A stretch of 64,000 nt of DNA from NCBI RefSeq assembly GCF_004365175.1, contig NZ_SOCE01000001.1, positions 3,417,403-3,481,402 on the forward strand, given 5' to 3'. Origin of the DNA: Kribbella voronezhensis. GTDB taxonomy: Bacteria > Actinomycetota > Actinomycetes > Propionibacteriales > Kribbellaceae. Position numbers and translations under genes: made by a program. Shown piece after piece: positions 3,827-6,589 of the stretch. How positions within the stretch are numbered: position 1 is the first letter of the stretch; each line of letters begins with the position of its first letter. The notes under the pieces were generated by a model that had not been told where the DNA came from, did no database searches, and was given only the letters and a program-made list of their open reading frames with translations.

Positions 3827-4732
3827 TCAAGGTCCGGCGAGCGGGGACTCGAGGGTGTACTGACGGAGGTGGCCTGGAGGTTGGGCTGCGCAGGTCATGC
3901 GGGCATCGATGGTGACGGTGTGGGCCGCGACCTCGACCAGGAGGGGGTTGTCGTCAGAACCGGTGAGGGTGACCCGCCAGCGGGCGGGACCGGACTGCTG
4001 GACGGCGAGCGGGCGGAGGGCACCGACGGCAGTCGAGTGGCCAGCTGCTCGGGCGAAGTGTTGCGCGGCCTGGGTCGGGGCGGTGACGGCACCACTGCCC
4101 CGGAAGTACTCCGGGACGACAAAGCCTTCGTCGTACTGCTTGGCCAAGTCGACCGCCTGCGACTGCGAGACGTGACCGTAGAAGAGGCTGTGCGGGAGGA
4201 GGACGACGTTCGCGGCGAAGCGGTCGCCGCCGACGTGGCTGCACTCCCAGGTCCGCTCGGGATAGGCAGCCGAGAGGGCTGCCGCAATCGGCCGGCCCCG
4301 TACGGCGCAGCACGCGTCATGGCGACCGTGGGTGCAGACGAGATAGATCGGTTCGCTACTCGGCTCACCCTCGACCCGACCGGCCAGCACGTCCAACAAC
4401 TGCTCGTCCGCCGACAACGAGCCCCAGCGCACCGACTCCCGCCCCGGCCGGCTGTCCACCATTGCCCACCGACGGGGAGCGGTCCGATCAACCCGCCCGT
4501 ACCGCCGGATCAGTACCGGCCGGATCCCCGCCTCACGACACACCCGAGCAACCTCCGCCCCGAGCGCACCGGCCGCGCCCCCGAGAGAGTGGAGCGCCTC
4601 ACGTGCCCACGAGTCGTGGCTTTCGATCAGGAGCCAACGCTCAGCCGGAGGCGCCGAAGCCATCAGCAGGTCGCCGCGTCGTTCGGCGGTTGCCGCACAA
4701 CCGGTGTCCGGCTGATACCTCGCCTCACTCAC
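3827..4732 (-). CDS. Sucrase/ferredoxin-like (Apd1-type) iron-sulfur protein (301 aa)
   Basis: Member of the sucrase/ferredoxin-like family (Suc_Fer-like; Apd1 in yeast), thioredoxin-fold proteins that bind a [2Fe-2S] cluster. The key block is C133-T-H135-G-R-H138-D-A-C141-C142 followed by AVRGRP, then HVGGDRFAAN about residue 165. The name sucrase is historical and does not imply sugar cleavage. It starts 16 bases after the stop of the JmjC/cupin gene and is probably the last gene of a three-gene unit (6484 to 3827). A plausible role is electron transfer to a partner, for example reducing the non-heme iron of the hydroxylase, but that is inference. Confidence 0.85.
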   Translation of the reverse strand: MSEARYQPDTGCAATAERRGDLLMASAPPAERWLLIESHDSWAREALHSLGGAAGALGAEVARVCREAGIRPVLIRRYGRVDRTAPRRWAMVDSRPGRESVRWGSLSADEQLLDVLAGRVEGEPSSEPIYLVCTHGRHDACCAVRGRPIAAALSAAYPERTWECSHVGGDRFAANVVLLPHSLFYGHVSQSQAVDLAKQYDEGFVVPEYFRGSGAVTAPTQAAQHFARAAGHSTAVGALRPLAVQQSGPARWRVTLTGSDDNPLLVEVAAHTVTIDARMTCAAQPPGHLRQYTLESPLAGP

Positions 4733-4748
4733 GGCAGCTCACAACAGC

Positions 4749-6014
4749 TCACTGCGAGCTGGCGACGACAACAGCTTCGGTCATCAACCGTCGGACAAGC
4801 ACGAGCTGATCGGCCTCATCCAGTCCCGGCAACTCACCGACCCGGACCACCTCGCCCGAGCAAGCCCTGGCGACCGCGTCGCTAGTTGCTGCGGGCAACG
4901 AGATCGTGCGGTCCGGAAGCTGCAGGAGCACCGGATCACCCGGGACGAGCCGAAAACGCAGACCCGCGCGCAAGCGAACCGCAGTACCGACGGCAAGTGA
5001 CGTGATGGCTGCTGCGTGAGCCAGGGGCCCCAACGGCGCAGGACGGTTGCCGGACCACGTGCGACGGCGCAGACGGGTTGCGAGCTCGTCGGCCGACGCA
5101 GTACGGATCTGCTCGGTCAACAACGGCACGACCTTCTCCAACTGCTGGGCAACTTGCTCCGGATCACCAGAGTCGAAGCCGAGCGGTAGAGCGGTCCGCA
5201 GCTCGGCCTCGTTCGCCGCGAGCGCGGCCAACTCCTGCGCGAGAAGGTAGCGAGTGAGCGTGTGCAGCCCCACGGTCAGGTGCGCACTGACTCCACCAAG
5301 AGCTTTGGCCGAGTGCAGGAATCCTCGCGGCACATACAGCGCATCGCCGGGACGCAGTACTGCGTCTACCACCGGCTCCTGATCGCGAGCAGCTGCAGCA
5401 ACGGCAGCGGAGTGATCCGTCCAAGGCTGGTTCCGCAACGGGTCCACATGCACTGGAGCATGAACGGTCCAGTGCTTCTCACCAGCCACTTGCAGCACGA
5501 AGACGTCATGTACGTCGTAGTGCGCAGCGAACCCCTGCGACTGCGGCGGTGTGATGTATGCGTTGATCTGCACCGGATGACCAGCTTCGACGGACAGTTG
5601 CGTAGCAAAGTCGACCAGCGGCGGCCAAGTGCGATGGAGTGCTTGCAGTACGACGGTGTGCCCGCTGGCGAAGAGCGCGGAGACCTTGTCGTCGCGCACC
5701 TGGTCACCGATCTCCGCACCGACCCCAGCTGCCCCCGTGAACTGGCTGTCGCCGACAACCGAGCCGTCCTTGGCGATGCGCAGGAACGGCGTACGGAGTC
5801 CGCGGCGTGACAGGAGCTCGTCGGCTGCTCCCAAGCTGAACAGGTCGGCAAAGCCGCCGGCAGGGACGTCCGGAGCAGGTGACAGCAGCGCCTGGGTGCC
5901 CCAGTAGTTGGCGGCAAACTCTTCGAGGTCACCGGTCACACAGCGCCGGAGAGCCGGGCAGCCGTCCGACGGCTGCCCGTCCGATCGTTGCCCGGTCTCC
6001 GGCTGGGTGTTCAC
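4749..6014 (-). CDS. JmjC/cupin-4 family 2-oxoglutarate-iron oxygenase (421 aa)
   Basis: Cupin-4 (ribosomal oxygenase ROXA/MINA-like) protein. The iron triad is H165-x-D167 (in AHYDVHD) and H234 (in PRGFLHSA), with PGDALYVP before the second histidine. Known relatives beta-hydroxylate Arg, His, Asp or Asn in proteins. The C-terminal 150 residues form the winged-helix-like extension of ROXA proteins. I place the start at GTG 6014, which overlaps the TGA of the upstream repeat gene as GTGA; a TTG one codon earlier is also in frame. This coupling and the single-strand arrangement suggest that the Asp-rich repeat protein encoded just upstream is a substrate or partner. Being a general ribosomal oxygenase is the alternative. 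Confidence 0.85.
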   Translation of the reverse strand: MNTQPETGQRSDGQPSDGCPALRRCVTGDLEEFAANYWGTQALLSPAPDVPAGGFADLFSLGAADELLSRRGLRTPFLRIAKDGSVVGDSQFTGAAGVGAEIGDQVRDDKVSALFASGHTVVLQALHRTWPPLVDFATQLSVEAGHPVQINAYITPPQSQGFAAHYDVHDVFVLQVAGEKHWTVHAPVHVDPLRNQPWTDHSAAVAAAARDQEPVVDAVLRPGDALYVPRGFLHSAKALGGVSAHLTVGLHTLTRYLLAQELAALAANEAELRTALPLGFDSGDPEQVAQQLEKVVPLLTEQIRTASADELATRLRRRTWSGNRPAPLGPLAHAAAITSLAVGTAVRLRAGLRFRLVPGDPVLLQLPDRTISLPAATSDAVARACSGEVVRVGELPGLDEADQLVLVRRLMTEAVVVASSQ

Positions 6015-6484
6015 CAACTGCCGGAGTTCCCGCTCGCACCGCCGTCGGCACCACCGTCTGTGGCACTGGGATCCGCACCGCCGTCGGCAGGCCCTTCGCC
6101 GCCACTACCGGCACCACCGTCAGCACCGCCATCACTGACGCCTTCCGAGGCGCCACCGTCGGCCGGTCCCTCGGAACCGCCGCCACCCGCGCCACTGTCC
6201 GCGCCGCCATCGGCACCGCCGTCACTCACACCGGAGGAAGCACCGCCGTCCGCGGGACCCTCCGCGCCGCCGTCGGCGCCACCGTCGTGCGCACCGGCCG
6301 CTGCCCCGCCGTCAGCCAGTCCTTCGTCGGAACCGCCCGAGTTGCCGTACTGCCCGCCATCGCCGGCGCCACTGTCAGCGCCACCATCGGCACCACCGTC
6401 GTGCGCACCAGGTGTCGCGCCGCCATCGGCCAGTCCTTCGCCATCGCCGGACGAGGTCGTCATGTCGTCGTCGTTCAAACCCAT
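6011..6484 (-). CDS. Asp/Gly/Ala-rich tandem-repeat protein (157 aa)
   Basis: Unrecognised, highly acidic, low-complexity protein made almost wholly of Gly, Ala, Asp, Ser and Glu. After a 15-residue head (MGLNDDDMTTSS...) come five imperfect repeats starting at residues 16, 54, 75, 105 and 130. Each follows EG[LP]ADGGA-x5-DGGADGGA; repeats 1 and 3 carry a spacer rich in Gly and Ser. It has no Cys or Lys, one Tyr (46), one Trp (last residue) and no signal peptide or membrane segment. The ATG at 6484 is preceded by GGGAG (upstream in-frame codons lack support). Its TGA overlaps the GTG of the JmjC/cupin oxygenase, so the two are translated together. It may be a hydroxylase substrate, possibly a RiPP-like precursor; this is a hypothesis. 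Confidence 0.75.
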   Translation of the reverse strand: MGLNDDDMTTSSGDGEGLADGGATPGAHDGGADGGADSGAGDGGQYGNSGGSDEGLADGGAAAGAHDGGADGGAEGPADGGASSGVSDGGADGGADSGAGGGGSEGPADGGASEGVSDGGADGGAGSGGEGPADGGADPSATDGGADGGASGNSGSW

Positions 6485-6589
6485 GATGCTGCTCCCTTCG
6501 AGAAGTGCTTTCGGTGTATCCCCTGTGCGCAAAGTAGACCGGGCCTAAACCCCTGCCTCAGTTACAGCGAGCACTCGGTTGGGCAGCAA

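Follow-up and report, generated by a model that had tools for sequence, protein, structure and literature searches.

The window analysed here is a stretch of 64,000 nucleotides from Kribbella voronezhensis (contig NZ_SOCE01000001.1, positions 3,417,403 to 3,481,402). Its minus strand carries three genes that encode, in this order, an Asp-rich repeat protein, a JmjC_2 (cupin-4) oxygenase and a Suc_Fer-like [2Fe-2S] protein. The repeat gene (6011..6484, 157 residues) starts with ATG at 6484 and ends with TGA at 6011-6013. Its last codons, TGGTGA, contain the GTG start (6014) of the oxygenase gene (4749..6014, 421 residues), and stop and start thereby overlap as GTGA. The third gene (3827..4732, 301 residues) starts 16 nucleotides past the oxygenase stop. 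This layout had been read from the letters in a first-pass annotation, which described five copies of EG[LP]ADGGA-x5-DGGADGGA, the GTGA overlap, a cupin-4 oxygenase with H165-x-D167 and H234, and an Apd1-like [2Fe-2S] gene 16 bases further on. The translation gives exactly the same repeat count, the oxygenase residues agree when numbered from the GTG, and matches to the Pfam families PF08007 and PF06999 support the two domain assignments. The best named relative is K. monticola, with oxygenases that are 96% identical. We show here that the Asp-rich protein and the oxygenase form an invariant pair, and we propose that the former is a dedicated substrate of the latter.

The repeat protein consists almost entirely of repeats of Asp, Gly and Ala. 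Its N-terminal leader, MGLNDDDMTTSSGDG (6440..6484), carries a DDD(M/I)xT motif whose conservation is seen in alignments and in motif counts across the phylum. Five repeats follow in the translation, EGLADGGATPGAHDGGADGGA (6377..6439), EGLADGGAAAGAHDGGADGGA (6263..6325), EGPADGGASSGVSDGGADGGA (6200..6262), EGPADGGASEGVSDGGADGGA (6110..6172) and EGPADGGADPSATDGGADGGA (6035..6097), and the protein ends in the tail SGNSGSW (6014..6034); NSGSW or close variants terminate most of the proteins encoded upstream of the oxygenase in Kribbella. When the window is read in six frames, DGGADGGA occurs five times and always inside the repeat gene. Compared with the gene of a sister species, 131 codons are identical, 24 differ synonymously and 2 non-synonymously. 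Tandem Repeats Finder detects only weak repeats at the DNA level, and a mixture of codons encodes Asp, Gly and Ala, which indicates that the repeat is maintained at the protein level. Judged from these codon differences, the gene is under strong protein-level selection. Because of the 24 synonymous against 2 non-synonymous differences, and because such a protein is encoded ahead of the oxygenase in virtually every Kribbella genome and in some 20 further genera, we consider the open reading frame (ORF) more than a product of chance. Six of the precursors gave only low-complexity matches to MSCRAMM Sdr/Clf adhesins in Pfam and NCBIfam, far under the cut-offs, in a search in which the HMMER bias filter may hide weak matches. 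A description of the pair was not found in the literature on cupin proteins with sucrase-ferredoxins, on YxbC and on JmjC enzymes of ribosomally synthesized and post-translationally modified peptides (RiPPs). Membership in a known precursor family was thus rejected, in keeping with the earlier statement that no described family with this trio was known. The location of the gene for the small protein directly before that of the enzyme which probably adds oxygen to its Asp residues points to a widespread and so far undescribed modification system in actinobacteria.

The distribution of the pair was followed in the class Actinomycetes and then in the wider Actinomycetota. The enzyme is present, at least as a trace, in 38/38 Kribbella genomes, and in the intact loci inspected the repeat protein lies upstream, with a start like MGL(N/S)DDDM(T/N)TSS and mostly with the end NSGSW. 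The same arrangement is found in named genomes of Actinokineospora, Umezawaea, Amycolatopsis, Pseudonocardia, Saccharopolyspora and Actinomycetospora, as well as in Modestobacter, Blastococcus, Geodermatophilus, Motilibacter, Jatrophihabitans, Subtercola and others. Among 395 Actinomycetes genomes, 67 contain the enzyme (E<=1e-60) and 55 a DGGADGGA-type repeat protein (E<=1e-8). All 55 fall within the 67, with adjoining genes (Fisher p 6e-56, a nominal value because related genomes are not independent). A co-occurrence far above chance, as proposed in the first-pass annotation as a check, is therefore observed. Twelve genomes had an enzyme match without a repeat-protein match. Nine of them were inspected: a plain DGGADGGA array is present in one, an Asp-rich ORF with another core behind the same leader in five and a divergent acidic ORF in two, while one, a distant relative, has none. 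Two of the other three do show a repeat ORF, and in the last (G134) a contig end truncates the enzyme match. An automatic filter found an Asp-rich ORF at 112/121 clade loci; seven of the nine negative loci are cut by a contig end, and at the other two (L033, L034) the repeat protein is in fact encoded. Nearly all clade loci with sufficient DNA upstream thus have an Asp-rich ORF in this position. No intact clade locus was found that keeps the oxygenase without a repeat ORF, a situation that had been named as evidence against the proposed modification system. The automatic count of ATGA/GTGA overlaps, 15/102, depends on uncertain enzyme starts and was not used as evidence.

The annotation had regarded all three genes as a unit. 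This holds for the Asp-rich protein and the JmjC_2 enzyme, which are the invariant part, and not for the Suc_Fer gene, which lies downstream on the same strand at 123/144 loci and is frequent rather than universal, thus accessory; at a few of the remaining loci the contig ends. One Kribbella genome (G002) adds a link by loss: the enzyme is broken into two fragments, only a C-terminal part of Suc_Fer is left and the repeat gene has been lost, a joint decay of the three genes. Across about 20 genera, clustering of the neighbours singled out the trio alone as recurrent. Any further neighbours that recur do so in at most five genera and mostly reflect family-level synteny, and a wider biosynthetic cluster was rejected on these grounds. 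The same clustering found no conserved transporter or protease near the clade loci.

In other classes of the Actinomycetota, an adjacent and usually overlapping Asp-rich or acidic ORF was present at 20/20 loci that were read in a phylum-wide sample. Most of these have (D/E)(D/E)D(I/M)xT near the N-terminus, for example DEDIETV, DEEIETVW or DADIETV, as the counterpart of DDDMTT in the window. The cores, in contrast to this leader, differ between the loci (DADGTDGDATDG, TDTDTTD, DQGVPGGTNGPRDAG); they are hypervariable and always Asp-rich. The leader motif is found in 22/24 precursors with divergent cores and in 102/129 of the DGGADGGA type, where shuffling predicts fewer than one, although for some divergent precursors the start codon was picked by eye, which slightly biases these counts toward the motif. 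The precursor type also tracks the enzyme tree, with 9 changes against a mean of 30 after shuffling. Precursors that undergo modification, such as those of RiPPs, typically show a conserved leader combined with a rewritten core, and two hallmarks of RiPP pathways, a small precursor gene beside the gene of a modifying enzyme and a conserved leader with a variable core, are seen here. By this analogy, the system may correspond to a RiPP pathway in which one oxygenase does all the tailoring. One locus (L271) combines the usual leader with a long, unusual repeat core, SADGTDQGVPGGTNGPRDAG, in which Asp is not dominant.

The enzyme belongs to the JmjC_2 family (PF08007, E 1.7e-27). A profile built from 33 sequences retrieves NO66 at 8e-32, followed by MINA53, YcfD and YxbC, and the AlphaFold model (predicted local distance difference test score, pLDDT, 87) has its best Foldseek match in NO66 (E 1.8e-28). 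The iron ligands H165, D167 and H234 and the lysine K180 do not vary among 168 enzymes, 144 of the clade and 24 of the outgroups. The distance from the first iron His to K180 is 15 residues, and the lysine that binds 2-oxoglutarate (2OG) in RIOX proteins has the same spacing (PMC6006756). The domain and the NO66/YcfD-like fold are thus accompanied by an HxD...H triad and a lysine for the C5-carboxylate of 2OG. Since these residues are invariant and the spacing is that of the RIOX proteins, we expect an active Fe(II)/2OG oxygenase of the NO66/MINA53/YcfD type. NO66 (RIOX1), MINA53 (RIOX2) and E. coli YcfD share the profile, the fold, the triad and the lysine spacing with the Kribbella enzyme; they differ in that they act on single His or Arg residues of ribosomal proteins that are encoded elsewhere, while the Kribbella enzyme is encoded beside an Asp-rich repeat protein. 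A parallel with respect to the substrate is offered by BipG and PbsQ, JmjC- or cupin-type Fe(II)/2OG enzymes that hydroxylate ribosomal precursor peptides in biphenomycin-type RiPP pathways (PMC12707348, PMC12257519). There, one ornithine of a small peptide is modified in partnership with a multinuclear non-heme iron-dependent oxidative enzyme (MNIO), a radical S-adenosylmethionine enzyme and a peptidase, whereas here many Asp residues would be modified and no such partner is conserved. Precedent for 2OG-dependent hydroxylation of Asp and Asn in proteins comes from AspH, which acts on epidermal growth factor-like domains, and from FIH (PMC7278358, PMC6817910). Both are eukaryotic enzymes; AspH has no dedicated substrate encoded beside it, and FIH is a weak fold match to this enzyme in Foldseek.

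We therefore favour, with a probability of roughly two in three, a dedicated substrate-enzyme pair in which the leader docks, the oxygenase hydroxylates many side chains of the core and the [2Fe-2S] protein serves as redox partner. That the repeat protein is a substrate, perhaps a RiPP-like precursor, had already been suggested in the first-pass annotation, and the idea gains weight from the leader/core pattern, the joint decay in one Kribbella and the match between precursor type and enzyme tree. Its conservation suggests that the short leader DDD(M/I)xT probably docks on the oxygenase. With Fe(II), O2 and 2OG, the enzyme would then hydroxylate many core side chains, most likely at the beta carbon of Asp within A-D-G sequences. 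Every core contains Asp, Gly and Ala, while His occurs in 68% of the DGGADGGA-type cores and in 1/24 divergent ones and Asn in 47% and 6/24, respectively; Lys and Arg are sparse. Among the side chains with precedent for 2OG-dependent hydroxylation, Asp alone is always present, and from this composition we infer that it is the likely target. The product would be a multiply modified acidic polymer, probably retained in the cell because no transporter or protease is conserved nearby; in some distant lineages it may instead be a cleaved peptide. The [2Fe-2S] protein would probably keep the enzyme iron ferrous or reduce iron bound to the product.

Several observations weigh against this proposal. 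The characterised relatives of the enzyme hydroxylate His or Arg of ribosomal proteins and not Asp (PMC9994133). No Asp-rich or precursor-like ORF was seen near the JmjC_2 genes of L188-L190, L223, L224 and L179, so not every JmjC_2 protein belongs to the system. At 21/144 loci (about 15%) the Suc_Fer gene does not adjoin, and why a 2OG enzyme should need a [2Fe-2S] partner is unexplained; to our knowledge, 2OG enzymes do not require a ferredoxin.

The third gene product combines a Suc_Fer domain (PF06999, E 1e-21) with the fold of thioredoxin-like [2Fe-2S] ferredoxins, to which its model (pLDDT 92.7) is closest; the top Foldseek matches are 1m2a and 5abr (E 0.004-0.005, TM-score 0.67-0.70 to the target). 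In Apd1 the cluster ligands are two Cys and two His, with an HxGGH motif. Here, C133, C141/C142 and H166 are invariant candidate ligands, whereas position 170 in the alignment is Asp or Cys and takes the place of the second His. Domain and fold are thus shared with Apd1/Aim32-type proteins, while the ligation for which the Apd1 cluster was named bishistidinyl (PMC11126956) is not found. The role of the protein may lie in protecting the Fe(II) state of the oxygenase, in a second redox step or in the reduction of iron held by the product. Where the gene is missing, FhuF or another [2Fe-2S] gene was considered as a stand-in; none was recognised by eye from the sequence of the short flanks.

Upstream of the repeat gene lies a probable ribosome-binding site, GGGAG (6493..6499, minus strand), which is part of a conserved AAGGGAGCAGCA-ATG in the Kribbella alignment. 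Further upstream, the block GTAAC - GGGTTTA - CTACTTTGCGCACA (6524..6565, minus strand) is a candidate promoter or operator. It was recognised by alignment of 27 Kribbella upstream regions, is strongly conserved in the Kribbella loci (L001-L030) and is absent from other genera; TTTGCGCA is present in 25/27 of these regions against 0.1 expected. In 53/60 non-Kribbella loci (11.9 expected) a GGGTA-type element is found instead, often 45-65 nucleotides before the start. The element is similar to the -10 element of sigB/sigF-type stress sigma factors, which we take as a hint only. One common operator was rejected, since the elements of Kribbella and of the other genera differ.

A short precursor-like ORF of 35-49 residues is also common upstream of more distant actinobacterial JmjC_2 enzymes (29-35% identity); three groups were distinguished, with ORFs of the types MDDNLFDVEVEDLPEVTSRDVTAGGDTDGTDGSSDFI, LVVAVERLSEVQDRHDAEHSDSDGSDG and ARGATPSDGGGTGRSDGND. 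Neighbours at some of these loci are a prolyl oligopeptidase together with a FhuF_C [2Fe-2S] gene, or an aldo/keto reductase. At five loci (L228, L232, L234, L239, L240) the JmjC_2 gene is preceded by an ORF of 35-38 residues that ends in DGTDGSSDFI or similar, and this group looks like a separate small RiPP family. The larger regions (L242, L247, L248) have a prolyl oligopeptidase gene upstream, and L242 additionally has a FhuF_C gene on the downstream side. Another JmjC_2 group (L235-L238, L241) has short ORFs of the LVVAVERLSEVQDRHDAEHSDSDGSDG type directly upstream, and in L225, L227 and L226 (larger regions L243, L246) the JmjC_2 gene stands beside an aldo/keto reductase gene, with short ORFs ending in SDGGGTGRSDGND or similar. 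Some Kribbella carry second JmjC_2 paralogues (L188, L189, L190), 37-40% identical, and no Asp-rich ORF was found upstream of these.

A role in iron handling would be a special case of the substrate-enzyme pair. FhuF is a ferric-siderophore reductase. In this scenario the product would be a ribosomal, siderophore-like chelator or store of iron(III) with beta-hydroxy-Asp as ligand, from which a [2Fe-2S] ferric reductase releases the iron; extended to the phylum, there might be a whole class of multiply beta-hydroxylated, Asp-rich iron(III) chelators or stores, each unloaded by a dedicated [2Fe-2S] reductase of the Suc_Fer or FhuF type. In cupriachelin and other siderophores, beta-hydroxyaspartate serves as a ligand of iron(III) (PMC10484230), and its affinity for iron(III), together with the FhuF_C partner in the outgroup and the Suc_Fer-type protein that is the usual neighbour in the clade, makes such a role worth considering. 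Cupriachelin-type siderophores are, however, small assembly-line lipopeptides, while the product here would be ribosomal and polymeric, with putative iron binding. Furthermore, no iron-regulatory site or nameable regulator was identified in the upstream regions compared, where Kribbella and other genera differ, and neither a conserved transporter nor, in the short flanks of loci that lack Suc_Fer, a different [2Fe-2S] gene was recognised. We regard both the iron scenario and its extension to the phylum as rather unlikely.

NO66, MINA53 and YcfD are not known to need a metal chaperone. This counts against the view that the Asp-rich protein is a partner of the enzyme rather than its substrate, be it an Fe(II) chaperone, a regulator or a tag for solubility or localisation, and that another target, for example a ribosomal protein, is what the enzyme modifies. 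Acidic repeats can bind metal and the closest characterised relatives do act on ribosomal proteins (PMC6006756, PMC9994133), but the combination of a conserved leader and a repeat core of highly variable sequence and length is better explained by a modified precursor than by a chaperone, and outgroup enzymes have the short precursor-like ORFs instead, some beside a peptidase gene. We consider a partner function unlikely. Still lower is our estimate for an oxidation of the core other than simple Asp hydroxylation, such as a desaturation, a cross-link or a cut in the backbone, for which the [2Fe-2S] protein would supply the electrons. Desaturation, halogenation and ring formation are further reactions of 2OG oxygenases (PMC9994133), and a redox partner is usually encoded beside the enzyme; yet the residues expected of a 2OG oxygenase are all kept and hydroxylation is the activity of all close relatives of known function, which makes such chemistry improbable. 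That the repeat ORF is a non-coding or neutral by-product of repetitive, GC-rich DNA, or a leader that serves translational coupling, agrees with its low complexity and with the stop/start overlap, but can hardly be upheld in view of the codon differences to the sister species, upstream ORF lengths from 45 to more than 200 residues with conserved ends, and an acidic composition that is maintained throughout the phylum, and was rejected.

If the proposed substrate-enzyme pair is correct, the locus of K. voronezhensis represents a very widespread modification system of actinobacteria that has not been described before, and its enzymes would constitute a new class of leader-guided JmjC oxygenases. 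The small proteins, which possibly become metal binders, would be a natural source of multiply beta-hydroxylated Asp polymers. A minimal natural precursor of 45 residues in Pseudonocardia (L065) makes the system directly testable. Many cupin-4 and Suc_Fer genes that have so far been annotated by their domain alone would, in the case of such a pair, also gain a first function.

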